DNA from: Myxococcota bacterium
Lineage (GTDB): Bacteria > Myxococcota > XYA12-FULL-58-9 > JALHOP01
Assembly (NCBI GenBank): GCA_022842935.1
Contig: JALHOP010000019.1
Span: forward strand, 1 to 64,000
DNA length: 64,000 bases
Direction of reading: 5' to 3'
Both the position numbers and the translations under genes were made by a program. Positions 9,491-60,559 of this stretch are shown one piece after another. The notes beneath the pieces are model-generated. The model searched no databases, was not told the DNA's origin, and saw nothing but the letters and a program-made list of their open reading frames with translations. The first letter of the stretch is position 1; every line of letters begins with the position of its first letter.

Positions 9491-10723
9491 TCAGAACGAC
9501 GGCGCCGACGCAGCATTTGGTGACCCGAAACCGCGCTGTTCGACGTGTTCGCGTGAAGCGATCATGGGGCCCGCCGGATGAAAGAACGTGTCAACGAGGA
9601 GCTCGCGGCCATCCAGAGTGACCAGGTTGTAGGCGTGCCCGAATGGCTCGATGAGGGTCTCGATGCGCACTTCGATACCGGCGCTCGCGATGAGTTTGCG
9701 CGTCAGTTCTGACGCGTGACGACAGACGAGTCCGCGCTCTCGACCTTCTTCGGAATGCGTGTAAGCGTGAACGAGCCGTGCGGCGCCCTCGACCAACGCA
9801 CGCGGGTCGGTCGTGCTCGCACGCAACGCATCGAACTCTGCCTGCATCGGCTGGGGTACCAGCACCTGGTCTTCGAGGACGTCCATCGCCGAGCTCAATC
9901 CATCGACGGGGAAGGTCTCGAGCACGAACCCAGTTGTTCCGTTCTTGAGGCGGTCCCAGCCGTTCGTGTCGGAATCGGTGGTCGAACGATGGCCCTTGAG
10001 CGCGGCGTATTCGCGGGCGTACTGCGCATACCGCGTCGCGACGTCCTCCGGGCTGCGATTCGGAAACGTGAGATCGCGTTCGATCTCGCCGACGTGAAGA
10101 CGCGCGGCATCGATCAACGGCAGCGCTCGCGGCGACACAGCACGACCATCGAGCGCGGCCAGCTGATCCTTGAGGCGGTTGAGCTGCGCGACCACGTCGT
10201 CGTTGCGCCCTCCCGCAAGGGCCTCGAGCGCCTGGTCGGTGACGCCGAGCATCGCAGCGATAGACGCCTCGTTTTCGCTCCCGCTACTTCGGAGTCGAGC
10301 TTGCGCGAGAACCCACTGGATCGCGGTGAGCCGCGAGGCAATCGCATCGCGCACCCGCGGATGGGCGTCGAGCACCTGCGTCGGCGAAAGCGTCGTGGGG
10401 GCGAGCGTCACCTCACGGGAAACACCGAGCCCAACACGCTGCCCGCTCGGTTTGGCGAGCTCGAGCCCCGGTTTGCCGACGTCGCGCACTGCCGCGCCGA
10501 GCGGTGCAGTGGCGATCGATGACGACTCGCCGCTGCGCGGGTTGGTTGGCGCGAAAGGCGCCGTATCGTCGGCGCTCGGAGCTGGGCTGACAGCGGACGC
10601 TCCCTTGACGCCTTGAACCATCGAGGGAGACGTTACGTTGCGGCAGTCCAGTTGACAAGCCGTGGCTGTCGACGGGAGCGCGTCGCTAGCGACGGCTGTC
10701 AAGGGTTCCCCCGACGTGACCAT
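9491..10723 (-). CDS. Transglutaminase-like protein with disordered N terminus
   Basis: The 410-residue protein starts with about 100 Ser/Ala/Pro-rich, probably disordered residues, continues through a helical middle (about 110-260), and ends with a papain-fold transglutaminase-like core: C334 in GLVCRHAS, H363 in FGHAYNLV and D378 in LLVDTFF, a Cys-His-Asp order and spacing that suits the family. It may be a peptidase, amidase or cross-linking enzyme; the residues do not tell which. ATG at 10723 is chosen because GGAG lies six bases upstream; an in-frame GTG at 10741 is an alternative. No signal peptide is seen. It may be co-transcribed with the M15 gene downstream. Confidence 0.7.
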   Translation of the reverse strand: MVTSGEPLTAVASDALPSTATACQLDCRNVTSPSMVQGVKGASAVSPAPSADDTAPFAPTNPRSGESSSIATAPLGAAVRDVGKPGLELAKPSGQRVGLGVSREVTLAPTTLSPTQVLDAHPRVRDAIASRLTAIQWVLAQARLRSSGSENEASIAAMLGVTDQALEALAGGRNDDVVAQLNRLKDQLAALDGRAVSPRALPLIDAARLHVGEIERDLTFPNRSPEDVATRYAQYAREYAALKGHRSTTDSDTNGWDRLKNGTTGFVLETFPVDGLSSAMDVLEDQVLVPQPMQAEFDALRASTTDPRALVEGAARLVHAYTHSEEGRERGLVCRHASELTRKLIASAGIEVRIETLIEPFGHAYNLVTLDGRELLVDTFFHPAGPMIASREHVEQRGFGSPNAASAPSF

Positions 10724-11235
10724 CGCGCGCGCTCCGTCCACGGTCGCTTAACGCGAGCGACCGGTGGAGACCCCGCCGGCCGCTGGGGCGAGGCCCTCGG
10801 TCACCTGTCGCGTCACCACGCGGGCTCGTGCGCTGCCGCGCGGCTCGGAGCCGTCGATCATCCTCGAGCCGTCGACACCCCGTGGGGCGGACCCGCCGCT
10901 TGCGGGGCACGACTCGAAGGCCGGCATGCAGGGGATAGACGGCGGGAAAAATGAATCGAGTGTTGGGCCCATGGGACGTTACCTTTCCGTGTGTGGCGGC
11001 AATGGAGAAGGTTCGGTACGCGGTGCACGAGAGTTGTCCCTTCGTCCGTTGGGCGCGGTGCACGCCTGGCGCTCGAAGAACGATCCTTGTCACTCTGCGC
11101 ATGCCGGTCGCGTCGCACGACACGGAGCTGCGAAGGCGACGCTTCAGGGAGGAATCCCGTCAGCATCTGTCGCGTCGCGATAGCGGACGCAGGGAGAGCT
11201 TTGTGCTGGCGAGCATGAACCGCTACGGTACAGCC
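10724..11235. other. Intergenic region without a supported gene
   Basis: This 512-base gap separates two divergent genes. The short open frames on either strand have no ribosome sites, start in odd places and lack protein-like composition. It presumably contains the promoters of both neighbours, but I see no clear -35/-10 pair, palindrome or structured RNA. Confidence 0.5.
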
Positions 11236-43316: not shown

Positions 43317-44057
43317 CTATTGACGACGATCGGTGAGGATCTTGTCGATGAGTCTGAGGATGCCTTGCTCGTGCCACTGGCGCGCCGCGTGGCCCCGATC
43401 TGAGCCAAGCTCCGTCGTTTTTATTATGCGTTGCTCGACGCTCGCTTCAAGCTCGACTTTCAGGGCTCGCAGCTCGTCGGAGGGCAGAGACTTCAAAGTT
43501 TCGACGTTCGGGAGACTCTTGTGCGCCTTGCCTGTGTCATCGACTGCGACTTGGACACTGCCGAGCGGGTCGCGCCGAATGCTGCGCGACTCGATGGGGC
43601 GCACCGCGTTCGCTGTCGCGGCCGTCGCTATAGCGGCGCCGGCAGCTGCGCTGGCGACCGCGGTAGATTGTGTGGCAGCCGCTACTCCTCCCCGTAGCGC
43701 CGCGAGACTGCCAACGCCGAGGCGTGCGACACCAACTCCAGAGAGCAGCCCGACGACGGCAACCTCGATACGAGCGGCGGTGCGGGCGTTGACGTATTCC
43801 GCCTCGTATCCGAACATGGGACCAGCGTTGATGCCGATGGCGCCGTGCAACGCTCCGGCGACGATGTTCAGGTGTGCGCGGAAGGCGTCGTGGAGTGGAC
43901 TACGCGCTTGTCGCTCCCGCGCGCGAAGCTCGTCGAGGCTGGTCGGCGTGTGCAACGAGCTCGATGCAGGTGGCGCCGCTGGAGGTGGAACGTCGAGGCA
44001 GACACGCGGGAGGGGGAGGGAAGCCACGGCGGGTTTCGCGAGGGTCACGCTTTTCAT
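43317..44057 (-). CDS. Ala-rich protein with charged C-terminal domain, possible toxin-like
   Basis: The 246-residue protein starts with a Pro-rich segment, has a long Ala/Val/Gly-rich stretch (about 75-165) that could be membrane-associated, and ends in about 65 charged residues (SLPNVETLKSLPSDELRAL, then RIIKTTELGSDRGHAARQWH, quoted in part). Conserved-looking His and Arg residues in the end domain recall short polymorphic-toxin C-terminal modules, but I cannot name one. ATG at 44057 is preferred over an upstream start ten residues earlier. The next gene downstream has no immunity signature. Function unknown. Confidence 0.6.
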   Translation of the reverse strand: MKSVTLAKPAVASLPLPRVCLDVPPPAAPPASSSLHTPTSLDELRARERQARSPLHDAFRAHLNIVAGALHGAIGINAGPMFGYEAEYVNARTAARIEVAVVGLLSGVGVARLGVGSLAALRGGVAAATQSTAVASAAAGAAIATAATANAVRPIESRSIRRDPLGSVQVAVDDTGKAHKSLPNVETLKSLPSDELRALKVELEASVEQRIIKTTELGSDRGHAARQWHEQGILRLIDKILTDRRQ

Positions 44058-44230
44058 GAGCGCCTGGTTCTGCAGCGCGCGTGCCACCCCCGTTCATGCC
44101 GAAAGTCCTCGTGAATGCGGCTGGCCTCGCGGGTTCGCCATGCACTCTGCGACATGTCTGTAGCAACTCGCGACGCTCTCTCTCTCGCCTCGCATGCGGA
44201 GTGAGGCAAGCGGTCAGTGCGAGCAGTACC

Positions 44231-44598: not shown

Positions 44599-45756
44599 TC
44601 AACCCGCCGCGCGGTCAGGGGTAAGACGGATGACTGCTCCATCGTCGTCATCGTCGGTCAGCAGGATGATGGACCCGTCGGGCGCCTGGGCGACCGCGCG
44701 GACACGTGCGTCCAGTCCGATGCGCTCCTCGGCTGTGATCTTGTCACCGTCTAGCGTCAGTCGGATCACCGCTTCAGCGGACAAACCGCCAATCAAGAGA
44801 TTGCCGCGCCATTTCGGGAACAGGTCCCCGGTGTAAAACATCATGCCGGAGGGCGAAATCACGGGGTTCCAATACCTGGCTGGCTGCTCGAATTCGGGCC
44901 GTGTGGGCGGGTCGGGGATGTCGCGGAAGTCGTAGTGCCGGCCCCAACTCACCAGGGGCCAACCGTAGTTCTTTCCGGCCTTGATGATGTTGAGCTCATC
45001 GCCGCCACGGGGGCCGAACTCGTGCGCCCACAGCACGCCCGTGCCGGGCTGAAAAGCCGCGCCCTGAACATTGCGATGGCCATAGGTCCAGATCTCGGGC
45101 CGCGCGTCCTTCTTGCCGACGAAGGGGTTGTCGCGCGGAACGGAGCCGTCCGGTTCGATACGAACGATGGCGCCAAAGGTCGTGCGCACGTCTTGGGCGG
45201 GGTCGAACTTGAAACGCTCACCAAGCGTGACGAAGAGCTTGCCGTCGCGGTCGAACAGTAGACGCGAACCCCAGTGATTCGGACCGTCGACCTTGGGCGT
45301 TTGGCGAAAAATCACGGCGAGGTTCTCGAGTGCGTCGCCCTCTACGGAGAGCCTGGCGCGCGCAACAGCGGTCGAGGCGCCGCCCTCGCCGGCTTCGGAG
45401 AAGGAAAGATAGACGAGACGGTCCGTTTTGAAAGACGGACTGAGAGCCACGTCAAGAAGACCTGCTTGGCCAGAGACCACGACCGTCGGAACCCCGCGCA
45501 GAGGCGGGCTGACCCGGCCTGCGGCATCGATGAGGCGTAGCCGTCCGGGGCGCTCGGTGACCAGCATCCGGCCGTCTGGTAGAAAAGCGACTCCCCACGG
45601 ATGCGCGAGCTTTTCAGCGACGCGTGTCGCGCGAATTGGACCTGCCTCGGTCTTGATGGTGCGCTCGGTCGCTGCTGAAAGAGGCGTGCACCAAAGCGCG
45701 CTGGCGAGCGCGTAGGTGGTCCATGTTCGCCGAGCTCGCGGTAAACGCTTCATCAT
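44599..45756 (-). CDS. PQQ-dependent aldose sugar dehydrogenase, Sec-exported
   Basis: The 385-residue protein has a clear signal peptide (basic start, hydrophobic core, LSA cleavage near residue 28) and the six-bladed propeller of soluble aldose dehydrogenases. It shows LAHPWGVAFLPDGRMLVTER, GPNHWGSRLLFDRDGKL (with the PQQ-site His), GHRNVQGAAF (with the conserved Arg) and GWPLVSWG. It should oxidise sugars in the periplasm. No pqq synthesis genes are seen here. It is a distant relative of the two leaderless dehydrogenases at 48.6-53.5 kb, which makes their lack of signal more striking. AGGAG precedes the double ATG at 45756. Confidence 0.92.
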   Translation of the reverse strand: MMKRLPRARRTWTTYALASALWCTPLSAATERTIKTEAGPIRATRVAEKLAHPWGVAFLPDGRMLVTERPGRLRLIDAAGRVSPPLRGVPTVVVSGQAGLLDVALSPSFKTDRLVYLSFSEAGEGGASTAVARARLSVEGDALENLAVIFRQTPKVDGPNHWGSRLLFDRDGKLFVTLGERFKFDPAQDVRTTFGAIVRIEPDGSVPRDNPFVGKKDARPEIWTYGHRNVQGAAFQPGTGVLWAHEFGPRGGDELNIIKAGKNYGWPLVSWGRHYDFRDIPDPPTRPEFEQPARYWNPVISPSGMMFYTGDLFPKWRGNLLIGGLSAEAVIRLTLDGDKITAEERIGLDARVRAVAQAPDGSIILLTDDDDDGAVIRLTPDRAAG

Positions 45757-45852
45757 GCGTCGCTCCTGTCGTCTTGAGCTAGGGCAGCGCCCGGCCGTGA
45801 GCAAGGGGCGAAAGCAAGACGTCTGTCGCGCGCTCGGTCTCGCCCCTCGGAC

Positions 45853-47192: not shown

Positions 47193-47738
47193 GTGCACAT
47201 CGTTTCACCCGCGTTGCTCATCGCTGGCTTGGCAGTGGCAGGACACATCGATGGCCGTGGTCCGCAGCCGCATTTCGTCTTCGGGGTGGGGGCGGGCTAC
47301 GGGGTTGTCGATACGACGATTCCCTGCCAGCGCGTGCAGCTGACCGTGGACGGACGCCTCGTAGAGAACGACTGCAGCTCTGGCTTCTCCGGCGTCTCCT
47401 TGGGCCTTGGCGCTGCGCTCATGTGGGGACGGACGCACCGCATGGGCCTGCGGCTCGATGGTGTGATGATCAATACCTCGACCGGCGGCCGCGGCGGGCT
47501 CGCCGATGCGTTGCTCGTCTATCGCTGGCATGGGCCTGTGATCCTCGAGGGGGGGGCGGGCGCTGGTTACACCGTCGCGCAGAACGTCGACGGCGATCGA
47601 CGCGGCTTGAACGTGGCGTTACATGGTCTCGTCGGCTTACCGATTAGTCGGCACGTGGCCGCGACGCTCCGGCTTGCCGGCGCGATCGGTGGCATGAACA
47701 CCTTCGTCTCGGGTATCGGGCTCGAATGGTCGTTCTAA
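47193..47738 (+). CDS. Outer-membrane beta-barrel-like protein
   Basis: The 181-residue protein has a hydrophobic leader (IVSPALLIAGLAVAG) and then eight or so Gly/aromatic strands (HFVFGVGAGYGVV to GIGLEWSF), ending in Phe as outer-membrane barrels do. GTG at 47193 is chosen because GAGG lies four bases upstream and the leader then sits at the N terminus; ATG at 47133 gives a longer basic start. Its stop overlaps the ChaN-like gene start (TAATG), so the two are translated together. Confidence 0.68.
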   Translation: MHIVSPALLIAGLAVAGHIDGRGPQPHFVFGVGAGYGVVDTTIPCQRVQLTVDGRLVENDCSSGFSGVSLGLGAALMWGRTHRMGLRLDGVMINTSTGGRGGLADALLVYRWHGPVILEGGAGAGYTVAQNVDGDRRGLNVALHGLVGLPISRHVAATLRLAGAIGGMNTFVSGIGLEWSF

Positions 47739-48607
47739 TGCGTCGGTGGTGTCTCTTCGTTTTTTCGTTAGTCGCCTGCACGCCTGCCCCGAAGGCACCC
47801 GTGGTCGCTGCTCCGCCTGGCGAAAGTATCGCCCTGCGCGGCGAAGGCGTGGGTCCTGAGTCCGTTTTAGCGGCGGCGCTGAGGTCTCGCTTCGTGCTCC
47901 TCGGAGAGCTTCATGACAACCCCCGGCACCACGCTTTGCAGGTCGAAGTCTTGGCGGCGCTGGTCGCTTCCGGACGCCGGCCCGCGCTCGTCTTCGAGAT
48001 GCTCGATGTCGACCAGACGCCCACGGTTCTCCAGCAGCGCGACCCCGTGAGCTTCGGTGAGGCGGTGGCCTGGGAGAAGCGCGGCTGGCCCAGCTACGCC
48101 ATGTACGAGCCCCTGGTCCGCATCGCCATGGCAAACGGGCTTCCTATCGTCGCCGGCAATATCGGGCGCGAGGCCCTGATGGCGGCGAGTAAGCAGCAAA
48201 AGACCGCTGCAGCCTTCGGCTTTAGTGTGTCGCTCGATGTGGAGGGCCGCTCCATCATCGAGGACAACGTGCGCAAGGGTCACTGCGGTTACGCGGACGA
48301 AGACTCGGTGAAGGTCATGGCGCTCGCTCAGGAGCTGCGTGACGCGCATCTCGCCCAACGCCTGCTCGCCTCGGCGACGCGTCACGGTGCCGTGCTCATC
48401 GCGGGAGGCGAACATGCCAATCGGGTGCACGGCGCTGGCTTCCACGCCGCGCATGCCCCGGGCGTGTCGTCGGACCAGGTGCTCTCCATCGGTTTCGTCG
48501 AGCCGGGCGGCTCGACGGCCGGCTATGACGTCGTATGGACGACCCCAGCAATCGAGCGCCCCGATCCGTGTATAGCCTTTAAAGAGAAGCTCGAGCGGCT
48601 GCGCTAG
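47738..48607 (+). CDS. ChaN-like lipoprotein, possible haem or iron binding
   Basis: The 289-residue protein has a lipoprotein signal (FSLVAC) and the ChaN/DUF399 core: VLLGELHDNPRHHALQ (about 42-57), FEMLD, and a C-terminal GGEHANRVHG. In Campylobacter ChaN this fold binds haem as a dimer and aids iron uptake; the family also resembles TraB/EreA-type hydrolases, in which the GE and HDN residues could be catalytic. ATG at 47738 overlaps the previous stop. Its partner, a barrel-like protein, would suit an outer-membrane location. Confidence 0.86.
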   Translation: MRRWCLFVFSLVACTPAPKAPVVAAPPGESIALRGEGVGPESVLAAALRSRFVLLGELHDNPRHHALQVEVLAALVASGRRPALVFEMLDVDQTPTVLQQRDPVSFGEAVAWEKRGWPSYAMYEPLVRIAMANGLPIVAGNIGREALMAASKQQKTAAAFGFSVSLDVEGRSIIEDNVRKGHCGYADEDSVKVMALAQELRDAHLAQRLLASATRHGAVLIAGGEHANRVHGAGFHAAHAPGVSSDQVLSIGFVEPGGSTAGYDVVWTTPAIERPDPCIAFKEKLERLR

Positions 48608-48610
48608 CGC

Positions 48611-50716
48611 TCAGCGCGCGGTACTCGGGACGATCCGCAAGATCTGATCGTCGCCGCGGCCAGGCTCGCCGCGGCCATCATGGTTACTCGTCGTGACGTA
48701 CAGATAGCCATCGGGGCCCTGCACGACGTTGCGAATGCGCCCGTAGACGTCGCGAAACAACACAGTCTGGTTGCGGACGCGATTGTGCTCGTCGAGCTCG
48801 AACATCTGGATGCCGCGGGCTGCGCCCGGGCCGAAGCCGAGCATCGCCATGAAGTAACGGTCGCGCCACTGCGGGATCTTGCCGCTGCTCGAGAAGGCGC
48901 CGCCGGAGGGTGCCCAGCTCGGGGTGCGGCCCGCGTGTGCGAGTGGCGCGGTGTACGGCGGACGGTGGGAGTCTCCCTGCACCTCGGGCCACCCGTAGTT
49001 GCTGCCGGGCCGAATCAGATTGATCTCGTCTTGTGACGACCCGCCGAGCTCGCTCGCGATGAGCTCGCCCCGGCTGTTCCACGCCAAGCCCTGGGGATTG
49101 CGGTGGCCGTAGCTCCAGATGCGCGCATCGGCATCGGACCGGCCGACGAAAGGATTGTCTGTCGGCGCCGTGCCGTCCGTGTTGACGCGCAAGATCTTGC
49201 CGCCCAGCGAGCGCAGGTCCTGGGCGCTCGCCGAACGCGCGGCGTCGCCGGTTGTGATGTAGAGCTTGCCGTCGGGGCCGAAAGCGATGCGTCCGCCATT
49301 GTGGATGCCCGAGGCGGGGATACCCGAGACGATGGCGGTCTCTCGGCCCGCGTTGGGGCCGGAGAGTGGCACGCGCACGACGCGGTTTTCAGTCGCGCCA
49401 GGTGTTGTGTAATAGAGGTAGGCGAGGTTGTTGCTGGCGAAGCCCGGGTCGAGTGCGATGCCTAACAGCCCGCCCTCACCGCCGCCGACGGGGATCGTCA
49501 GCACTGGCTGCGCTTGCACGACCCCGTCGCGGATCACCCGCACGCGGCCGCCTCTCTCGGTGAAATAGACGTCTCCGTTGGGCGCGAAGGCCATACCCCA
49601 GGGCACGCGCAGATCGGTCGCGAGGGTTTGCACGGTGACCCCGAGCTGGTTCATGCGCTCGGAGCTCTGGACGTTGATCGGGAGGGCGTCGGCCGGCCAA
49701 GCATTGACCGGCGGGTCGAACGAGGAGCCCGACATATAGGCCTCGTAGTCCGCCGCGTTCGTGGCGCGCATGCGCAGCAAGGCGTCGGTGCGCTCGTGAA
49801 CCCGGTCGCCTGGCGCTGCGTGATGGTGGTGGTGGTGGCCGGTGGCTTGCCGCCAGGCGTGGCCCTCGGGTGTCCTCGCCCAGGCGCGGCCGTTTTCGCT
49901 GGTCAGCCACGTCTCGACGATGTTGTCGATGTGACGGTGCCACAGCCAGAAGACGGGATCTTCGGGGGCTCGGCGGCTCCACATGAGGCCACCCACCGCA
50001 GCGTGCCCCGCGCCATGGTAGCCGAGATTGTCGGGCGGGCCGCTGCCGAAGGCACGGCCCAGCTCGTCGAGGCTCTTGAAGTCGCCGAGGCGCGTGTAGC
50101 CGAAGATCGGAGCGCGCTCGGTCCCGCCCTCTGTCGTGAGCCAGGAGGGTGTGCGCACGTTCGGTGACGTCGAGAAGCGCTCGACATTGCCGAGCTGCGG
50201 CGGAACGACCTCGTTTGGCCGCCATTCGGCGAGTGGCACGAGGTCGAGATCGCGCCCAGAAGCACGGATGAAGCGCTCCATGTCGACGATCATTTCGTGA
50301 TGCATTTGTAGAAACGCCGTGCCGGAGCCCGGGCCCCGCGTCCCGCCGGCGCCGTTCACTTCGTGCCAGGCTGCGTGATGCGCGAGCAGCGTGTCGTTCT
50401 GCTGCAGGTACTCGCGGACCCGCGCCGCGAAGCGCTCATACTGTCGCGGCGTCCATGTTGGACGCGATGGCGGAGCGTCTGGGCGCCCCGACGATGTAGC
50501 GACGGTCGGCGCCAGGCTCTGCGATCGGGCACGCGCCGGGGCGATCGCTTCTTGCGCAACGAGCCGAGGCCGCGCTTCACCGAGAAAGGTCGGCGGAACG
50601 CGGCGCTCGGGATCGGAGGTGCATATGTCTTCCGGACGAAACGGCGGCAACGCCGGTTCGCTCGGACTGCTGGTGAGGCCGAGGCGGGCAAAGAGACGGT
50701 TGACCGCCTCGACCAT
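48611..50716 (-). CDS. Tyrosinase-like domain fused to PQQ-type sugar dehydrogenase
   Basis: The 701-residue protein has a disordered start (about 1-85), a tyrosinase-like di-copper domain (about 90-290), a linker with a natural run of six His (294-299), and a PQQ-type propeller (about 345-700). The CuB ligands fit exactly: H234, H238 and H260 with EDPVFWLWH and D264. For CuA, H114 and H139 fit the first and third positions by spacing, but the middle ligand is not at the usual place (H118 or H140 may replace it). The propeller has GIHNGGRIAFGPDG and GHRNPQGLAW. No signal peptide. The two halves could couple phenol oxidation with sugar oxidation. It starts four bases after the upstream gene stop. 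Confidence 0.82.
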   Translation of the reverse strand: MVEAVNRLFARLGLTSSPSEPALPPFRPEDICTSDPERRVPPTFLGEARPRLVAQEAIAPARARSQSLAPTVATSSGRPDAPPSRPTWTPRQYERFAARVREYLQQNDTLLAHHAAWHEVNGAGGTRGPGSGTAFLQMHHEMIVDMERFIRASGRDLDLVPLAEWRPNEVVPPQLGNVERFSTSPNVRTPSWLTTEGGTERAPIFGYTRLGDFKSLDELGRAFGSGPPDNLGYHGAGHAAVGGLMWSRRAPEDPVFWLWHRHIDNIVETWLTSENGRAWARTPEGHAWRQATGHHHHHHAAPGDRVHERTDALLRMRATNAADYEAYMSGSSFDPPVNAWPADALPINVQSSERMNQLGVTVQTLATDLRVPWGMAFAPNGDVYFTERGGRVRVIRDGVVQAQPVLTIPVGGGEGGLLGIALDPGFASNNLAYLYYTTPGATENRVVRVPLSGPNAGRETAIVSGIPASGIHNGGRIAFGPDGKLYITTGDAARSASAQDLRSLGGKILRVNTDGTAPTDNPFVGRSDADARIWSYGHRNPQGLAWNSRGELIASELGGSSQDEINLIRPGSNYGWPEVQGDSHRPPYTAPLAHAGRTPSWAPSGGAFSSSGKIPQWRDRYFMAMLGFGPGAARGIQMFELDEHNRVRNQTVLFRDVYGRIRNVVQGPDGYLYVTTSNHDGRGEPGRGDDQILRIVPSTAR

Positions 50717-50720
50717 CGGG

Positions 50721-52118
50721 TTACTGCCCCGGAGTCGCGGCCGGCGCGGGCGCGTCGGCGTTGATGGACATCACACGGTTGGTACCGTCGGTGTTACGCT
50801 GCATGTAGACCACGCGCAGCGTGCCGTCCGGGTCGCTGGCGAACGACGGGAACCAGGCGAGGTTGCCCGGGCCAGCGTTGGTGGCGCGACGAACCGTGTT
50901 GTCACGGATGTTGTAGAGATAAATGTCGGCGGTGCCTCGGCGCAGGAGCTCCTGGAACGCCGGGTCGTCCGCCGAAGCGAACCCGTAATGAGCAAAGTCC
51001 GCTGGGGTCGCAGCATGGTGATAGGCGAGGTAGTCGCCGCCCATCTTTGGCTTGCCGCCGCGCAGACCTGACACGAGACGCACCGGGCTGAGCTCGACCG
51101 CGCCGCTGTCGCTGCGGCGGACGCTGTAGATGCCATAGCCGAGCTGGCTGTTGGGATTCGCGGGATCGACGAGCTGCGACACCATGTGCCGGCCGTCGTG
51201 CGAGGTCTGCCATCCGCTGTGGAACGGCGTCGCGATGGTTTGGGTGTTGCGGTCGCCGCCGGTCGCGAGACCCTGGAGCGAGTGCACACGAACGCTCGCG
51301 GTGGGCGAGCCGCTGACGCGGGGGTCACGCGTGCTGGGCGCTGGATCGCCGGTCCAGAGATGGCCGTCGACCGCGATACCGTCACGGTCGCTGCCCGCGA
51401 CGTCTTGGTAGAGCGCAAGCGAGGTGACGCGCTGCACGCCGCCGGGGATTTCGCCGGTCACGTTCTCCGGGGGATTGTTGCGCAGCCAGTCCATGCCGAC
51501 GCGCCACGTGCCGCCGCCCTGGAAGTAGAGCGCGTCATCGCCAAACGTTGGGTCGTAGGAGCCCTGGCGAAAGTGGACCGCGTTGGTCTGACCGGGGCGC
51601 AAGTCGACGAGCGAGACGCCGCGGTTGCTGCCCACGGCGAACATCTCGCCATTCGGCGACACGCGACCCCAATACGAGGTGCTGGTGATGCCATTGGTCG
51701 CCAGATTTCGCAGCTCGGTGCCGGGCTGCGCGGCGCCGAAGACGGGCTGCGCAGGCTGCGCCGTCGCGATGATGTCGGCGGTGAGGCCGGGGAGGGTGGT
51801 CGCGAGCGCCGCGTCACGGCGGGTCTGCTCGAGGTTGCGGTCGATGATCTGGGTGGTCGAGGGCAGCGACAAGCCCGGACCGAAGGCGGGGCGGCGGGGC
51901 AGCGACATGTCGCGACGGCGGTCGCCGACTGCCTGCTCGAGCATACCGAGATCGATCTCGCTGAAGCGGTCCCGGTCGCCGTCGATGACGTTGGCGCGAC
52001 CGAGGGCCTCGTCGAACTCGCCCGGCTCGACACCGGCGCCGACTGCTTCGTCGCGCATGGCGCGAACGCGATCACGGACTACATTGCTGTCGAAGGACAA
52101 TTGGTCAATGGCCGACAC
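50721..52118 (-). CDS. Beta-propeller protein with EF-hand-like start (copy 2)
   Basis: The 465-residue protein has a helical first 60 residues with the EF-hand-like loop D46-G-D48-R-D50 (helix EALGRAN before it; position 12 is Leu rather than Glu), a linker, and a propeller (about 130-450) with TolB/WD40-type blades such as YWGRVSPNGEMFAVGSNRG and ADIYLYNIRDNTVRRAT. It is a clear paralogue of the product of 53490-54863. No signal peptide or catalytic motif. GTG at 52118 is chosen for AGGAG six bases upstream. It ends four bases before the tyrosinase-PQQ gene, so the two are coupled. Confidence 0.78.
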   Translation of the reverse strand: MSAIDQLSFDSNVVRDRVRAMRDEAVGAGVEPGEFDEALGRANVIDGDRDRFSEIDLGMLEQAVGDRRRDMSLPRRPAFGPGLSLPSTTQIIDRNLEQTRRDAALATTLPGLTADIIATAQPAQPVFGAAQPGTELRNLATNGITSTSYWGRVSPNGEMFAVGSNRGVSLVDLRPGQTNAVHFRQGSYDPTFGDDALYFQGGGTWRVGMDWLRNNPPENVTGEIPGGVQRVTSLALYQDVAGSDRDGIAVDGHLWTGDPAPSTRDPRVSGSPTASVRVHSLQGLATGGDRNTQTIATPFHSGWQTSHDGRHMVSQLVDPANPNSQLGYGIYSVRRSDSGAVELSPVRLVSGLRGGKPKMGGDYLAYHHAATPADFAHYGFASADDPAFQELLRRGTADIYLYNIRDNTVRRATNAGPGNLAWFPSFASDPDGTLRVVYMQRNTDGTNRVMSINADAPAPAATPGQ

Positions 52119-52149
52119 GGGACACTCCTGTGGATTCTATTGAATGGAA

Positions 52150-53490
52150 TTAGTTGGAACGCTCGAGAGGCACGATGCGGAGGATGCGGTCGCCTTCTGG
52201 AATGCGCGGCCCACGCCCGTCGTAGTTGCTCGTGGTCATGTAGAGATATCCGTCTGGACCCTGGCTCACGCTGCGCACGCGACCGAAGTCGTCGCGGAAG
52301 AGCACTTGCTGGCGGCGCACGACGTTGTTTTCGTCGATCTCGAAACGCTGGACGCCGCGGGCGGCGCCGGCGCCGAAGCCGAGCATCGACATGAAGTAGT
52401 TGCCGCGCCACTGGGGGATGCGGTCGCTCGTCAAAAATGTGCTGCCAGAGGGCGCCCAGCTCGGGTTACGGCCAGCGTGCGCGAGTGGCGCCGTGAACGG
52501 CGGCCGGTGATTGTCGCCCTCGGCGGTCGGCCAACCATAGTTGGCACCCGGCCGGATGAGGTTGATCTCGTCGTTCGACGACGCGCCGAATTCGCTCGCC
52601 ACCAGGTCGCCGCGCTCGTTCCAACCAAGGCCCTGGGGGTTGCGGTGACCGTACGACCAGATGCGCGCGTCGGCATCGGGTTGGCCCGCGAACGGGTTGT
52701 CGCTTGGCGCCGTGCCGTCGGGATTGACGCGGAGGATTTTGCCCGAGAGCGCCGTCAGGCTCTGCGAGTTCTGGGCACGAGCCGCGTCACCAGTCGTAAT
52801 GTACAGCTTGCCGTCGGGCCCAAAGGCGATGCGTCCGCCGTTGTGATTGCTCGACGCGGGGATGCCGCCGACGATGACGGTCTCGGGGCCAGCGGTGCGG
52901 CCGTCGGCGCCGAGCGTCACGCGAACCACGCGGTTTTCACGGTTACCCGGCAACGTGTAGTAAAGGTAGGCGTTGCGGTTCTGCGCGAAGTTCGGGTCGA
53001 GCGCCATGCCGAGGAGGCCACCTTCGCCGCCGCCGACCTGGATGTTCATCACCGGCTCGGGTTGCACCACGCCATCGCGGATCAAGCGGACGCGGCCGGG
53101 ACGCTCTGTGAAGTACACGTCGCCGTTGGGGGCGTAAGCCATGCTCCACACGGTGTTGAGGCCGCTCGCGAGCGTCTGAACGCTGACGCCAAGCTCGGGG
53201 TATGCCCGACTGCTCTGCACGTTGATTGGCAAGGCGCCCTGTGGTGTCGTCGCATCGGCCGCGATTGTTTGATTGCTATCGCGGACGCTGCGGCTTGGCG
53301 GTTCCTGCAGACCAAGCGAGGCGGCCGGACGCTGCATCACGGGCAGCCACTTGGGAGCCGGGGCACTGGCGACCGAACCGGGGGCGTAGGGCGGAGTCGG
53401 CAGGTAGGGGCCAGGTCCACCGGGGACCTGGTCGTCCGAGAAACGGGATAGGGCGACGCTGCTGGTCGTTGGATCAATGGCAGAGGTCAT
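52150..53490 (-). CDS. PQQ-type sugar dehydrogenase without signal peptide (copy 1)
   Basis: The 446-residue protein has a Pro/Ser-rich start (about 1-85), then LPINVQSS, the same boundary motif as in the tyrosinase fusion, and a propeller with SSNHNGGRIAFGPDG, GHRNPQGLGW and NYGWPTAEGD. These carry the His and Arg expected at the PQQ site of soluble glucose/aldose dehydrogenases. More than half of the propeller is identical by eye to that of the fusion protein. Unlike the enzyme at 44599-45756, it has no leader peptide. Its ATG overlaps the previous stop by ATGA, so it is coupled to the beta-propeller gene. Confidence 0.88.
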   Translation of the reverse strand: MTSAIDPTTSSVALSRFSDDQVPGGPGPYLPTPPYAPGSVASAPAPKWLPVMQRPAASLGLQEPPSRSVRDSNQTIAADATTPQGALPINVQSSRAYPELGVSVQTLASGLNTVWSMAYAPNGDVYFTERPGRVRLIRDGVVQPEPVMNIQVGGGEGGLLGMALDPNFAQNRNAYLYYTLPGNRENRVVRVTLGADGRTAGPETVIVGGIPASSNHNGGRIAFGPDGKLYITTGDAARAQNSQSLTALSGKILRVNPDGTAPSDNPFAGQPDADARIWSYGHRNPQGLGWNERGDLVASEFGASSNDEINLIRPGANYGWPTAEGDNHRPPFTAPLAHAGRNPSWAPSGSTFLTSDRIPQWRGNYFMSMLGFGAGAARGVQRFEIDENNVVRRQQVLFRDDFGRVRSVSQGPDGYLYMTTSNYDGRGPRIPEGDRILRIVPLERSN

Positions 53491-54863
53491 CAGTTCACCG
53501 GAGCCGACATGACGCGGCGCGAGCCGTCGGCGTTGAGTTGCAGGTAGTGGACGCGGTAGTTGCCTTGCGCGTCCTGGCTAAACGACGGGAACCACGCGAG
53601 GTTGCCGGCGCCGGCGTTGGTCGCCCGTCGCACGGTGTTGTCGCGCATGTTGTAGACGTAGATGTCGGCGGTTCCTTGGCGCAGGAGGTCCTGGAATGCC
53701 GGGTCGTCCGCCGAAGCGAACCCGTACGATGCGAAGTCTTCCGCCGTCACAGCATGATGAAACGCGACGTAGTCGCCCGCCATCTTGGGCTTGCCGCCGC
53801 GCAGGCCTGAAACGACCCGCACGGGGGTGAGGTCGACCTCTCCGCTATCGCGGCGTGACACGCTATAGATGGCGTAGCCGACCTGCTCGTTCGTTGCGTC
53901 GGGGTTTGCGATCTGGGCCACGACATGGCGACCGTCGTTGGAAAGCTGGAACCCACTGTGGAACGGCGTCGACACTGTCTGCACGTTTTGAGTGCCGACT
54001 CCCTGGAGCGCGTCCAAGTGGTGGAAACGCACGCTCGCGGTCTTCGAGCCCGTGACGCGTGGGTCGCGTCTGCTCGGCCCCGAATCGCCAGTCCACAGGT
54101 GACCATCGAGCGCGATTCCGCGAGCGCCATCGCTGGCAACGTCCTGATAGAGCGCGAGCGAGCCGATGCGTTGGACGTGACCAGGCACCTCGCCCGTTAC
54201 TTCTTCCGGAGGGTTGTTGCGCAGCCAGTCGAGTGAAGCCCGCCACGTGCCGCCGCCCTGGAAAATCAGTGCGTCGCTGGTGAACGTCGGGTCAAACGAG
54301 CCCTGGCGGAAGTGGACGGCATTGGCCTGGCCTGGGCGAATGTCGAAGGCGCTGACGCCTCGGTTGCTGCCGATCGCGAACACCGTTCCATCGGGAGAAA
54401 CGCGTCCCCAGTAGGTCGTTCGCGTGACGCCGTTTGTCGCGAGCAGCCGGTGTTCGGTCGCTGCGGGCGGCGCACTGTGGACGGGCTCGGCGGGGAGCGC
54501 CCCGCGCACGAGATCGGGCGACAGGCCACTGCCGGACTGCTGCGCGGTGGCGGCTGCTCGCCGCTCCGTCTCGAGATTTTCCTCGAGCTTCTGCGCCACG
54601 CTCGGACGGGGCGCCTGCGGGGCAAATCCGGCGCGCGGCGGGCGCAGGGCGATGGCGTGGCGGGTGTCGTGCACCGCCTGCTCGAGCTGACCCAGGTCGG
54701 CGTCGCTGAAGACATCACGGTCGCCGTCGAGCTGATTGGCGCGGCCGAGGGCCTCCTCGAATTCCCCCTCCGTGACACCGGCTTGCAGGGCTTCCTCGCG
54801 CATGGCCGCTACGCGGGCCCGAACGCCAGGATTGTCGAAACCAACCTGAAGCTGTGAAGACAC
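53490..54863 (-). CDS. Beta-propeller protein with EF-hand-like start (copy 1)
   Basis: The 457-residue protein has the EF-hand-like loop D46-G-D48-R-D50-V-F-S at 46-57, then a propeller with YWGRVSPDGTVFAIGSNRG and ADIYVYNMRDNTVRRAT. It matches the product of 50721-52118 along its whole length, with identical positions for the EF-hand-like loop. No signal peptide is visible. GTG at 54863 is chosen for GAGAGG five bases before it. It is the first gene of the four-gene block. The role is unknown; it may be a calcium-bound chaperone or partner of the dehydrogenase that follows. Confidence 0.78.
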   Translation of the reverse strand: MSSQLQVGFDNPGVRARVAAMREEALQAGVTEGEFEEALGRANQLDGDRDVFSDADLGQLEQAVHDTRHAIALRPPRAGFAPQAPRPSVAQKLEENLETERRAAATAQQSGSGLSPDLVRGALPAEPVHSAPPAATEHRLLATNGVTRTTYWGRVSPDGTVFAIGSNRGVSAFDIRPGQANAVHFRQGSFDPTFTSDALIFQGGGTWRASLDWLRNNPPEEVTGEVPGHVQRIGSLALYQDVASDGARGIALDGHLWTGDSGPSRRDPRVTGSKTASVRFHHLDALQGVGTQNVQTVSTPFHSGFQLSNDGRHVVAQIANPDATNEQVGYAIYSVSRRDSGEVDLTPVRVVSGLRGGKPKMAGDYVAFHHAVTAEDFASYGFASADDPAFQDLLRQGTADIYVYNMRDNTVRRATNAGAGNLAWFPSFSQDAQGNYRVHYLQLNADGSRRVMSAPVN

Positions 54864-55139
54864 GTGAACCTCTCGGGGTCAGAGCTTGCTGCGGCGTGGA
54901 ACTGAACTGAGGGCCAACGGCGGATGGGGATGAGCCACTAGCGGGTCAAGTCATCGGCAGGCGTTACGCGTTCGTCGCGCAATTGTGACGATTCCTGGGT
55001 GTGCCTCGGGCGGCGCGGCGAGCAGGCCAGCCGGGGGGCAGGGATCGCGCTTCCGGCGCACCAGCAGGCGTCGCCAAGCCGATGATAGGGGCCGGTGCCA
55101 TTTCTTCAACCTTGGCGCCATTTCTCGCGGAGTCCGCTC

Positions 55140-55682
55140 ATGCAGCCAGTCGAATGTATCCAGAGCACCGCTGTCTCGGTCGCGCAGGCGACCCCCGCCA
55201 CGGGTTCAGCCTCGGCCGGACGCACGCCTGGGTTCGCGCGCGTCAAAGAGATTCTCGACGGCGCGATCGCGACCTGGCGTAAGGACCAGCAGCGTGAGCC
55301 CCACCTCGAGGTCCACGGACCTCGCTTTCGCTGGAACACCCGTGACGAGCTCGTGAATGGGGTTGTCGAGCTGGGAGACATGCGCTTCCCGCTCATCGAC
55401 GAAACGCTCCGCGGTAACGGACGCGCCGAAGAGACTTTCCTCATCCAGTATCTGCGACGCGATGGCGACATGTTCGTACGTATGCCGTCGGGTGGTCCCT
55501 ATCTGCCTGACGATCAGATCGACGAGATCGCGCGCTGGATCGACGCGGGCTGCCCCGAGCTCGCCCCAGGTCAGCAGAGCTCGTTGCGCGCGCCGGACGT
55601 AAGCCGCGCTCTCGCTTTCGCGCAGCGTTACGGGCGCCCGGCGAACGGCGCCGCTTTGCAACTTGCCGCGCCGCGCGTCTAG
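55140..55682 (+). CDS. Protein with cytochrome-like WIDAGCP end, no haem site
   Basis: The 180-residue protein has a short disordered start, a middle alpha/beta part (LEVHGPRFRW, LGDMRFPLID), and a C-terminal MPSGGPYLPDDQIDEIARWI plus DAGCP motif. That motif resembles the end of planctomycete-type cytochrome-c domains (MPPGGPxLSxxEIxxIxxWIDAG), but no CxxCH haem site exists in the protein. ATG at 55140 has GGAG seven bases upstream. It is divergent from the dehydrogenase block and convergent with the M13 peptidase. It may be a helper of the oxidases or a domain that lost its haem. Confidence 0.7.
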   Translation: MQPVECIQSTAVSVAQATPATGSASAGRTPGFARVKEILDGAIATWRKDQQREPHLEVHGPRFRWNTRDELVNGVVELGDMRFPLIDETLRGNGRAEETFLIQYLRRDGDMFVRMPSGGPYLPDDQIDEIARWIDAGCPELAPGQQSSLRAPDVSRALAFAQRYGRPANGAALQLAAPRV

Positions 55683-55897: not shown

Positions 55898-58132
55898 CTA
55901 CCAGACCTGCAAGCGCTGCTCGGGCGGCAAATACATCGCGTCACCCGGCTCGACACCGAAGGCGCCGTACCAGGCGTCGATGTTGCGGACAGCGCCCGCC
56001 CGCACCATGCCCGGTGAGTGCGGGTCGGTCGCGAGCAAGTTGCGTAGCGCCTTCTCGCGGTACTTGGTGCGCCACACCTGTGCAAAGCCCAGGAAAAATC
56101 GTTGGCCGCCCGTCGTGCCGTCGACGATCGGCGCCGGCTTCCCCTTGAGCGACGCGCGGTAGGCGTCGTACGCCAAGCTGATGCCAGCAATGTCGCCGAT
56201 GTTCTCGCCGAGGGTCAGCTCGCCGTTCACCTTCACGCCTGGGAGCGGCTCGAACTGGCTGTACTGCGCAACGATCTTGTCGGTGATCGCCTTGAAGTTC
56301 TTCACGTCGGACGGCAACCACCAGTCGACGAGCCGGCCCTCCGCATCGTATTTGCGCCCTTGATCGTCGAAGTGGTGGCCGATCTCGTGCCCGATGACCG
56401 CGCCGATGGCGCCGTAGTTGACCGCCTCGTCGGCGTTTGGGTCGAAGAAGGGCGGCTGTAGAATCGCTGCCGGGAAGCAGATGACGTTCACGCTCGGGTC
56501 CGCGTAAGCGTTGACCGTCATCGGGGTCATGAACCACTCGTTGCGGTCGATGGGCGAGCCGAGCTTTGCGAGGTTGCGCTGATGCTCGAACTCTGCAGCA
56601 CGATGAAGGTTCGCGTAGGCTTGGCCGGGCTCGATTGCGAGCGCGCTGTAGTCGCGCCACTTGTCTGGATAGCCGATCATCGCTTGGAACGATGCGAGCT
56701 TCTCCTTCGCCTTCTTCTTAGTCTCGGCCGCCATCCATGGCACCTCGTCGATGCGGGCATCCATGGCGCTGGTGACATTTTTTACTAGCTGCTCCATCCG
56801 AGCCTTGGTCTCTGGCGGGAAGTACTTCGCCACGTAGACCTTGGCGATGACGTCAGCGAGCGCACCGCTCGTCAGGGCGACGCCGCGTTTCCAGCGCTCA
56901 CCCTGCTCAGGCTTGCCGGCGAGCGTCTTTCCGGAGAACGCGAAGTCCTCGTCGACGAAGGCTTTGGAGAGGAGCGGCGCTGCACCCTTGATGACGTGGA
57001 ACGTGAGGTAGTCACGCCAGATCTCGGGTGATTCGCTGCCGATGAGTTTCGCCATGCCCGTGATGGCGGACGGTTGGCCAACGATGAAGCTTCTCTCTTT
57101 GCCGACACCGACGCCGCCAAGGAACGCATCCCAGTCGACGCCTGGCGCGAGCTTGTCGAAGTCGGCGCGTGACCACTTGTTGTACGTCTTCTCAGCGTCG
57201 CGCGAGTCGACGTTGGTCCAGTGCACCTCGGCCATCTTGTGTTCGAGGGCGTAGATGCGCTCCGCCTTTTCCTTCGCGTCGGGGACGCCAGCTAGCTCGA
57301 GCATGGCGGCGATGTGCTGCTTGTATTTGCCCTGCAGCTCGGCGCTGCGTTCGTCCTTCTGCAGATAGAAATCACGGTCCGGGAGGCCCAGGCCCCCCTG
57401 CGAGAAGGCTGCAATGTACGCCTGTGGGTTCTTGCTGTCGGGGCCGATGTACATGCCGAACGGCTGCGTCGTGCCCGTGCGGGCGAGCTGAGCCATGACG
57501 CGGGAGACGTCGGCCGCGCTCTTCACGCCGGCGACGAGCTCGAGCGCCGGTTGAACGGGCTTCACACCCAAGGCTTCGATGGCCTTGGTGTCCATGAAGC
57601 TGGTGTAGAGGTCGCGCACTTTGCGCTGCTCGCTGCCCTCGGGCGCCTCGCCAGTCGCCATCGCTTCGACGATCTCGCGGGTGCGCTTGCTCGATAGGTC
57701 CCGTAGCTTGATGAACGCGCCGTAGGAGTTCGCGTCAGCGGGGATCTGGGTGTTGTCGAGAGCGACACCGTTGGCGTGGCGATTGAAGTCGTCACCGGCC
57801 TTTACGGCGAGGTCCATCCCGTCGGTATCGAAGCCCCACTTGCCGATGGCGGGCTTCTTGGGCGGGTCGGCGGTCAAGGCGACGCGTGCGCCTAGAAGCG
57901 CGAGCTGACCGGCCTGCGGGCGCCCAAGCGCGGCGTCGACACCAGGGGCTGGGTGACTCGCTTCGTGCGCGAACGTGGGGTCAGGAAACCAGCGGCTGTG
58001 CGAGCTCTGCTTGGCGGCGCTGTGGTCGTAGAAGTGGCGGCTCACAGCCTGCTGGAGGCCGCCGCCCTGGATAGGGGCTTCGGGTGCGTAGTGACGATGG
58101 GGATGGCGTGTCGAGGAAAGGCGAGCGTCCAT
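55898..58132 (-). CDS. M13-family metallopeptidase (PepO/neprilysin-like)
   Basis: The 744-residue protein has a disordered His-rich start (about 1-95) and the M13 fold: VIGHEIGHHFDDQG with H582, E583 and H586, then GENIGDIAG with E643 and D647, which complete the zinc site. NAYADPSVNVICFPAAILQP is another family signature. M13 peptidases cut short peptides outside the cell, yet no signal peptide is present. The usual C-terminal CxxW reads RLQVW, without Cys. ATG at 58132 follows GAGGAG. About 215 bases separate its end from the convergent gene and contain GC-rich inverted patches but no clear terminator. Confidence 0.92.
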   Translation of the reverse strand: MDARLSSTRHPHRHYAPEAPIQGGGLQQAVSRHFYDHSAAKQSSHSRWFPDPTFAHEASHPAPGVDAALGRPQAGQLALLGARVALTADPPKKPAIGKWGFDTDGMDLAVKAGDDFNRHANGVALDNTQIPADANSYGAFIKLRDLSSKRTREIVEAMATGEAPEGSEQRKVRDLYTSFMDTKAIEALGVKPVQPALELVAGVKSAADVSRVMAQLARTGTTQPFGMYIGPDSKNPQAYIAAFSQGGLGLPDRDFYLQKDERSAELQGKYKQHIAAMLELAGVPDAKEKAERIYALEHKMAEVHWTNVDSRDAEKTYNKWSRADFDKLAPGVDWDAFLGGVGVGKERSFIVGQPSAITGMAKLIGSESPEIWRDYLTFHVIKGAAPLLSKAFVDEDFAFSGKTLAGKPEQGERWKRGVALTSGALADVIAKVYVAKYFPPETKARMEQLVKNVTSAMDARIDEVPWMAAETKKKAKEKLASFQAMIGYPDKWRDYSALAIEPGQAYANLHRAAEFEHQRNLAKLGSPIDRNEWFMTPMTVNAYADPSVNVICFPAAILQPPFFDPNADEAVNYGAIGAVIGHEIGHHFDDQGRKYDAEGRLVDWWLPSDVKNFKAITDKIVAQYSQFEPLPGVKVNGELTLGENIGDIAGISLAYDAYRASLKGKPAPIVDGTTGGQRFFLGFAQVWRTKYREKALRNLLATDPHSPGMVRAGAVRNIDAWYGAFGVEPGDAMYLPPEQRLQVW

Positions 58133-58897: not shown

Positions 58898-60559
58898 CTA
58901 GGCGATTTCGAACGCCGCCTCGTGGACGGTCCATGCGTCTTGCTTGGGGTCCTTCACCTCGTCCGAGACGAACCGGACGCGCAGCTTCCACTTGCCCACG
59001 TCGCCGGCTGCTGGCTGCCACTCACGCTTACCGGCGAGCTCGGGGCGCGCCTTACCGGCGGGGTCGATCCATTCGACCTGCAAGCGGTCATCAGCAAGGA
59101 CGAGCTTCGCACTCACCATGCTGCCGTTGCGCTCGACCGCATCGATGAGGCTCACCTCCTTGAGGAAGTTGCGCCACATGTTCTCCTGGCAGGCGGGGCA
59201 GAAGTGCGTGAGCTGCATGTCGCGCATCAGGCAGTCGGACTCGGTGGGCCGGAAGCCGCCACTACCGCCGTTCTGGCTGTAGCTCTGAAAAGCTCCGACG
59301 ACGCTCTTGTCGCTCGGAAAGCTCGGCGGCAAGCCATAGACGGCGAGGCGCGACAGGATGTTGTTGCCATCACCCGCGCGGTCTTTGAACGTGATGGTGT
59401 GGCGACCAGGCGTAAGCTCGAGCTTCACCTTGTAGAAGTTGCGGTCATAGTTGAACTTGCCGTCGTAGGCGACCGACTTGCCGTCGACGAGGAGCTCGAC
59501 GTCCTCTTTCTTGTCGAAGCCGAGGCTCGAGAAGTCGAGCAGAGTGCTCTTGGCGTTTTCTGGCACGGTGACGCTGGTCTGCCATTCGCCGCCCCCGAGG
59601 TTCTTCCACGGCGCAGAGATGTGCAGAAGCTTGGCCGCGTGCACTGGGGTCTGGCCCTTGACGAAGTGTTGCCAGGGTAGGTTGGTCGACGAGCTGCTGT
59701 GGTTGGCGCCGTCGTAGACCTGGCCGCCGTCGTACTCTTCGCCGACGCGGCCGAAGTTGTGGCCTAGCTCGTGGCGCAGCACCGTGGTGATGTTGAGGGG
59801 CGCCGAGGTGGTAATCGCGAAGGTGCCGCCAAGGCCGCCGTAGAACTTATCGTTGCCAACGAGGATCGGATAGTCGCTGTCGGGCGCGAGCTCGGTCGCG
59901 CGCTTGGCCGCCGCCGAGTTCCCGGGCATGACCGCCTGGCGGTGTTGTGGGTGGCGGTAGAGGCCGAGCGCTGTATTCTTCGAGCGGCCGTCGCCGATGC
60001 CGCTCTCCTTGGAGGGCACAAAGACAGCGTGCACGTTGAAGAGCGGCAAGTAGGACTTGAAGGTGTCGTTGCCAAAAAGCTCGTCGGTGATGCGTTTGGC
60101 GTCGAGGAAGAACTTGTCCTTCTCTGCCTCGGTGTAGCCGTCGCCAACGATCGTGAGGTCGATGCGGTTCTTCGATGGACCTTGCGCGACCAGCGTGCGC
60201 ACCTCCGAGCCTGGCCACGAAGGCGCTACGATCGCGTCGGTGCGGGGCGTCTCATCGAGGTAGATGCGCTGCAGCGGGGCGCCGGGCGCGAAGTCGATGA
60301 TGCGATCGAAGCCAGTCGTCTGGCCGAGAAGGGCGCGATCACGCACCTGGCGGTGGCCGACCACCTCGCCCTTGCCGTCGACGATGTCCGTTTTGACGGG
60401 CAGCCAGCTCGAGGGGTCCGCGACAACACTGAAACCCTTGCCGGCCTGCATGGGAGCAGTCGTCTTGACGGTGGGCTTCTTCGATGGGCGTAAGGCTTCG
60501 CCCGAGGGAGTGCCTCGAACGCCGGTGGCGCGGCGGGTCGAACGGGTCGTGGATGTCAT
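58898..60559 (-). CDS. M64-family (IgA-peptidase-like) metallopeptidase
   Basis: The 553-residue protein has a Thr/Lys-rich disordered start (about 1-40), then the M64 catalytic domain: IDLTIVGDGYTEAEKDKFF (about 122-140), and LRHELGHNFGRVGEEYDGG with H263, E264 and H267 and a likely third ligand in EEY/D. A beta domain of 150 residues follows, with FCPACQENMW near 440. Family M64 includes a Clostridium ramosum IgA protease and myxobacterial relatives. No signal peptide is evident. ATG at 60559 is used. It diverges from the 178-residue protein gene across 112 bases. Confidence 0.9.
   Translation of the reverse strand: MTSTTRSTRRATGVRGTPSGEALRPSKKPTVKTTAPMQAGKGFSVVADPSSWLPVKTDIVDGKGEVVGHRQVRDRALLGQTTGFDRIIDFAPGAPLQRIYLDETPRTDAIVAPSWPGSEVRTLVAQGPSKNRIDLTIVGDGYTEAEKDKFFLDAKRITDELFGNDTFKSYLPLFNVHAVFVPSKESGIGDGRSKNTALGLYRHPQHRQAVMPGNSAAAKRATELAPDSDYPILVGNDKFYGGLGGTFAITTSAPLNITTVLRHELGHNFGRVGEEYDGGQVYDGANHSSSSTNLPWQHFVKGQTPVHAAKLLHISAPWKNLGGGEWQTSVTVPENAKSTLLDFSSLGFDKKEDVELLVDGKSVAYDGKFNYDRNFYKVKLELTPGRHTITFKDRAGDGNNILSRLAVYGLPPSFPSDKSVVGAFQSYSQNGGSGGFRPTESDCLMRDMQLTHFCPACQENMWRNFLKEVSLIDAVERNGSMVSAKLVLADDRLQVEWIDPAGKARPELAGKREWQPAAGDVGKWKLRVRFVSDEVKDPKQDAWTVHEAAFEIA

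Follow-up and report, generated by a model that had tools for sequence, protein, structure and literature searches.

A duplicated propeller–dehydrogenase gene pair in a relative of the myxobacteria: leaderless proteins of probable envelope origin and a possible copper–PQQ fusion

When two gene types stand side by side twice at one locus, does their repeated adjacency indicate that the products work together? The question is raised by a block of four genes within bases 1-64000 of contig C19 (this whole 64,000-base stretch is referred to as the window) from a bacterium related to myxobacteria, whose 6.28-Mb genome is distributed over 46 contigs. The block alternates propeller genes with genes for pyrroloquinoline quinone (PQQ) dehydrogenase-type proteins of the GSDH family, in the order P1 (propeller), GA (dehydrogenase), P2 (propeller) and GB (tyrosinase-dehydrogenase). 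An earlier interpretation made from the letters alone, here termed the sequence-only reading, held that the conservation of each propeller beside a dehydrogenase implies joint work. That implication is not supported; the two pairings appear to be a single event copied once. The account that we favor, tentatively and at somewhat under an even chance, sees in the four genes a co-transcribed redox module which arose from one duplication of a propeller-GSDH pair, was relocated, and acquired a copper domain supplying quinones to the dehydrogenase.

The four open reading frames (ORFs) were confirmed in position and order, all on the minus strand and open over their full lengths. P1 (53490..54863, -) encodes a leaderless, heme-less and cysteine-less beta-propeller protein of 457 residues, as judged from its ORF, a fold model and homologs; GA (52150..53490, -) encodes a leaderless GSDH/PQQ-dehydrogenase-type protein of 446 residues (PF07995, E 1.3e-88); P2 (50721..52118, -) encodes a 465-residue paralogue of P1; and GB (48611..50716, -) encodes a 701-residue protein in which a tyrosinase-like domain is fused to a GSDH domain (PF07995, 4.2e-88; PF00264, 1.4e-9). 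Spacing is as tight as first described for the gaps between GA and P2 (31 bases) and between P2 and GB (4 bases), while the reported ATGA overlap of P1 and GA proved to be TGATG, a 1-base overlap. An AGGAG-like ribosome-binding site precedes P2, and since a search inside the block detected no convincing terminator, the four genes are likely to share one transcript. The promoter likely lies within the 231-bp divergent intergenic region 5' of P1 that is delimited by the ORF boundaries (54864..55094); a minus-strand match at 55109-55082 that weakly resembles a sigma-70 promoter (consensus match only) overlaps its edge.

Both dehydrogenases match the complete GSDH domain (297.9 bits for GA and 296.2 for GB, against a cut-off of 25), which in GB is placed at 48671..49609 (-) by the domain match. 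Homology between GA and GB begins at the shared LPINVQSS boundary (GA 87-94, GB 345-352) that the sequence-only reading had correctly picked out. Alignment with 3a9g, which with 2ism is their nearest solved relative, identifies as conserved the catalytic His in HNGGRI (GA 216, GB 472) and the PQQ-contacting Arg-Asn in GHRNPQG (GA 281, GB 537), residues whose roles in the GSDH family have been described (PMC6881810). From family membership and these conserved residues, we infer that GA and GB load PQQ and, with calcium, oxidise an aldose or aldehyde.

For P1 and P2, no Pfam or NCBIfam model matched. An AlphaFold2 model of the propeller, built on 33 relatives (mean predicted local distance difference test score, pLDDT, 75.6), predicts that the N-terminus is helical and is joined by a disordered linker to a beta-propeller at about residues 135-457, the propeller pLDDT being mostly 80-95. 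In structure comparison it came closest to six-bladed propellers and TolB (VIA-align best Z 16.4, TolB 15.4; root-mean-square deviation, rmsd, 3.1-3.5). The helical N-terminal domain, residues 1-72 of P1, contains an Asp-rich, EF-hand-like loop, DGDRDVFSDADL; within the genome this domain occurs only in P1, P2 and a third propeller, P3 (C5:113942-115300; 64% identity to P1), which was overlooked in the sequence-only reading. The contig of P3 carries no GSDH gene. P3 is flanked by a hydrophobic ORF, which has no similarity to ORF 43317-44087 of the window, by an ORF whose M91 match stays below threshold and by an M36/M4-like ORF. The sub-threshold match, in ORF L016:9455-10366 (-; genome C5) adjoining P3, is to PF14891 (Peptidase_M91, 'effector protein').

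A likely origin of the propellers emerges from profile searching across 85,000 species, which yielded 50 named propeller-family loci (L030-L079), nearly all myxobacterial; this named-collection search relies on two conserved peptide patterns, and closer relatives may be missed. The propeller domain of P1-P3 is homologous to that of the family, with 26-33% identity over about 300 residues (tblastn down to 4e-27). Most family members are about 600 residues long and consist of a lipoprotein-type leader, one N-terminal CxxCH motif and the propeller, and 31 of the 50 loci have a neighbouring gene for a second CxxCH (heme-c) protein. An adjacent GSDH gene is present in 0 of 50 loci; two loci include one in the flanking DNA, either on the opposite strand or at a distance of two genes. 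At those loci that end at contig ends the absence of a neighbour is weak evidence, the presence of heme partners being unaffected. For the second heme-c protein, no convincing relative was found in the present genome (best E 0.27). Collectively, these loci expose a widespread and undescribed myxobacterial family of heme-c/propeller lipoproteins, usually encoded beside a second heme-c protein; a literature search retrieved no paper on this propeller family or on a tyrosinase-GSDH fusion. Two variations within the family may be recorded. Five loci (L036, L043, L044, L049 and L050) encode proteins of about 1200 residues with three CxxCH motifs, four of them with the same heme-protein neighbour, and appear to represent a longer multi-heme version. 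Four others (L033, L055, L064 and L069) hold tandem propeller pairs without an adjacent GSDH gene, a recurrent duplication of the cytochrome-c/propeller gene.

Viewed beside this family, P1-P3 are a derived branch rather than typical members, because the lipoprotein leader and CxxCH motif that are the norm in their relatives are absent: P1-P3 have neither a lipobox nor a CxxCH heme motif. When leaders were measured as the best 12-residue mean hydrophobicity, which is not a trained predictor, P1, P2, P3, GA and GB reached at most 0.7 and so have no hydrophobic leader, as compared with 1.78 or more in every propeller homolog whose N-terminus could be read, 2.1 or more in the near GSDH relatives of GA and GB (17 of 17 read) and 1.97-2.56 in four further GSDH genes that this genome encodes. 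The cysteines tell a similar story, with none in P1 and P2 and two in P3 versus two to six, mostly three, in homologous propeller domains; GA has no cysteine and GB has one. Propellers and dehydrogenases of the block thus seem to have changed alike, both being leaderless and cysteine-poor compared with their relatives, and one branch of the propeller family would have lost leader, heme and cysteines together. As propeller relatives normally sit in the envelope beside heme proteins, the pairing with a dehydrogenase appears to be a local invention and not a conserved partnership. Propellers do occur without a dehydrogenase neighbour, an observation that the sequence-only reading itself had named as refuting it: P3 is one, and all 50 family loci lack an adjacent GSDH gene. 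More generally, when two adjacent pairs descend from one duplication, the second does not count as separate evidence that the genes are partners, a point that corrects a common inference from synteny.

The duplication itself, also proposed in the sequence-only reading, is supported. P1 and P2 are indeed paralogues (64.8% amino-acid identity; P1/P3 64.5%), and GA and GB, 72.0% identical over the GSDH part, are mutual closest relatives, the next closest protein among 195 genomes of the phylum being 47% identical; the two group together in a tree at a moderately supported fork (92/56). Because divergence at four-fold sites is equal for P1/P2 (0.489) and GA/GB (0.507; Fisher p = 0.83), one tandem duplication of the propeller-GSDH pair is supported as the best-fitting history. 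A propeller tree rooted with distant homologs left the order inside P1-P3 unresolved, and the order was therefore judged by silent and polarised sites. Four-fold-site divergence to P3 is 0.589 for P1 and 0.583 for P2 (p = 0.04 vs P1/P2, pooled), and outgroup-polarised amino-acid sites lend weak support to P1+P2 (14 sites, as against 8 for P1+P3 and 4 for P2+P3), such that a branching of P3 before the P1/P2 split fits best, by a modest margin. The two-gene unit was not found elsewhere in the 195 genomes of the phylum, and a single-sequence scan of genome contigs for it returned no relative. The further proposal that one copy gained a copper domain is consistent with these data: since no GSDH relative examined carries such a domain, its history is most simply read as a gain on the GB branch, the alternative being an earlier gain followed by loss from GA.

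How might such a module work? Both gene types would go back to proteins exported to the envelope: for the propeller, a myxobacterial lipoprotein bearing a c-type cytochrome at its N-terminus, and for the GSDH protein, a lipoprotein dehydrogenase. In this lineage both would have lost leader and cysteines and the propeller its heme domain as well, which, with the loss of the heme partner, would take away the route by which the propeller family usually relays electrons, if it does so at all. Because the leaders are lost, the products would work in the cytoplasm, or outside the cell after leaderless release. GA would carry out sugar or aldehyde oxidation with PQQ/Ca2+, and GB would do likewise while bearing a type-3-copper-like domain. 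If loaded with copper, this domain would use O2 to convert a phenol into an o-quinone, which the PQQ dehydrogenase would reduce again while oxidising sugar; the quinone would serve as a diffusible acceptor for the dehydrogenase and oxygen as the sink, so that the electrons would end on O2 with no cytochrome involved. The propellers P1 and P2 would be non-catalytic scaffolds or binding discs in place of the lost heme relay. A precedent exists in CcPDH, whose GSDH-type PQQ dehydrogenase feeds a copper lytic polysaccharide monooxygenase (LPMO) either directly or via a diphenol/quinone mediator (PMC5960967), and by analogy we infer that quinone coupling is the most economical role for the GB fusion. 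A more ambitious version, which must be considered doubtful, casts GB as a natural single-chain redox coupler in which a type-3-copper domain with an HxxxH-type first copper site (CuA) makes o-quinones from a phenol and O2 and the fused PQQ dehydrogenase reduces them with electrons from sugar; sugar oxidation would then be oxygen-driven and cytochrome-free, in a module without leaders that arose from a heme pathway of the envelope. Were the coupling real, nature would have joined in GB a copper domain that makes quinones to a PQQ dehydrogenase that reduces them, whereas the other known cases of such chemistry, a PQQ dehydrogenase driving a copper LPMO, involve separate proteins.

Much depends on the tyrosinase-like region of GB (residues ~97-271; 49904..50428, -), for which the canonical histidine spacing was taken from PMC10526336. 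The PF00264 match (39.1 bits, cut-off 22.6, E 1.4e-9) covers profile positions 166-212 of 214 only, that is, the C-terminal part with the second copper site (CuB). The CuB histidines, His234, His238 and His260 (HxxxH...H), are invariant in three divergent homologs, as are His114 and His139 of a candidate CuA site composed of His114, His118 and His139. His118 and a Gly-rich insert in this region, NGAGGTRGPGSG, are common to the closest homolog, which is 35% identical, encoded in another genome, not fused to GSDH and without an obvious leader at its start. No other tyrosinase-GSDH fusion was present among the phylum matches read, and the domain had no match in a plasmid collection. Beyond the domain, GB residues 294-299 (49820-49837, -) form a natural HHHHHH run, which could bind metal and is the source of false matches to PDB entries that carry a His tag.

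Several observations weigh against the redox-module account. In vsTyr, His86 precedes His95, placing a histidine nine before the third CuA His (PMC10526336), and the corresponding position in GB, nine before His139, is Gly130; the GB copper site may therefore be altered or dead. A single-sequence AlphaFold2 model of the tyrosinase-like domain was unusable (pLDDT 38.6), and the silent sites by which the duplication was dated are close to saturation (dS, the synonymous divergence, near 1). A search of the genome for pqqC gave no match, but as control genomes were silent too, this result is uninformative. That Gly130 occupies the canonical position, and that PF00264 is matched by the CuB half only, are the grounds for the foremost rival, in which the tyrosinase-like domain is a degenerate or substrate-binding module and not a working type-3 copper site. 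We regard this as unlikely, although a serious contender: the invariance of histidines 114, 139, 234, 238 and 260 speaks against it, and since H118 and the Gly-rich insert recur in the closest homolog, His118 may replace the usual second CuA His in an HxxxH variant.

A second rival concerns location and supposes that the block proteins leave the cell without Sec or Tat (the twin-arginine pathway), for example through vesicles, lysis or an injection apparatus during predation, and act outside on sugars and phenols. Three further genes of the window belong to classes that are usually exported and yet encode leaderless proteins with long low-complexity N-termini, namely an M13 peptidase (55898-58132, -), an M64 peptidase (58898-60559, -) and a peptidoglycan-binding/VanY-like protein (7546-9309, -). 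These genes do not strictly favour either the cytoplasm or leaderless release, yet they make release worth considering; the adjacency of the gene with the M91 'effector' match to P3 and the leaderless start of the closest tyrosinase-domain homolog point in the same direction. Nonetheless, no secretion machinery or common signal was identified, and the P1 N-terminal domain is confined to P1-P3 in the genome, so that release of the whole set is rather unlikely.

Closer to the original question, each propeller could be an obligate subunit or chaperone of its dehydrogenase, hence the conserved pair. The joint duplication of propeller and dehydrogenase and the retention of their order in both copies, with junctions of 1 and 4 bases, are what such a dependence would leave behind, but P3 lacks the partner, GSDH genes are adjacent at none of the family loci (within the flank at 2 of 50) and what recurs beside these propellers is a heme-c protein (31 of 50), all of which render the dependence improbable. 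Least probable of all is a stepwise assembly in which propellers and dehydrogenases duplicated separately, came to alternate by chance or selection and were equalised in divergence by gene conversion, as the nearly identical P1/P2 and P1/P3 identities (64.8 and 64.5%), the open tree order and the tandem propeller pairs of other genomes would allow but the matching silent divergence of P1/P2 and GA/GB (p = 0.83), the greater distance of P3 (p = 0.04) and, weakly, the polarised sites (14 vs 8 and 4) argue against.

Turning to the surroundings of the block, GB is followed, 3 bases from its end, by a convergent ChaN-like gene (47726-48607, +). The third GSDH gene of the window (44599-45804, -; 401 residues, 36% identity to GA and GB) went unmentioned in the sequence-only reading; it lies 2.8 kb from GB, has a probable N-terminal signal and is probably an ordinary periplasmic Asd/YliI-type enzyme. 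On the other side, the divergent ORF 55095-55682 (+) ends in MPSGGPYLPDDQIDEIARWIDAGCPE, which resembles a cytochrome c C-terminus but is without a heme motif; it matches no Pfam family, has one paralogue (C7:69105-69461) plus weak short matches, and was not linked to the block. A transfer signature was rejected, block GC content (0.67-0.68) being only slightly above the window mean (0.65). Elsewhere, the leaderless ORF 9491-10741 (-), without a Pfam match, has a C-terminal Cys-His-Asp pattern that may be transglutaminase-like.

How, then, does the block compare with known systems? With the GSDH family (PF07995; 3a9g/3a9h, 2ism, Acinetobacter sGDH-B and fungal AA12), GA and GB share the full domain, the catalytic His and the Arg-Asn pair, while the Gly-Pro of the family's calcium loop is Gly-Ala or Gly-Gly. 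Relatives carry an export leader, which is usual for the family though not part of its Pfam definition, whereas GA and GB have none, and GB additionally bears an N-terminal copper-type domain. CcPDH (AA12, PMC5960967), a PQQ dehydrogenase with cytochrome and carbohydrate-binding (CBM) domains that drives a copper LPMO, resembles GB in placing a GSDH-type PQQ dehydrogenase within a multidomain chain and in its ability to feed a copper enzyme; in GB, however, the copper-type domain is in the same chain, is of type 3 rather than LPMO, and is unaccompanied by a cytochrome. Bacterial tyrosinases (vsTyr, PMC10526336; Streptomyces MelC2; o-aminophenol oxidases) share with GB the CuB HxxxH...H motif and its flanks, but the CuA spacing differs (H114-x3-H118...H139 with a Gly-rich insert, versus H-x5-H-x8-H in vsTyr), and GB is fused to GSDH with no Tat or other leader. 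TolB and WD40-like propellers (2hqs, 1crz) are like P1 in fold (VIA-align Z about 15, rmsd 3.2-3.5) with no significant sequence match to the propeller (best hmmsearch E 0.17). The cytochrome-c/propeller lipoproteins (L030-L079), finally, share the propeller domain with P1-P3, which differ from them in lacking lipobox and CxxCH, in their EF-hand-like N-terminus and, for P1 and P2, in being cysteine-free.

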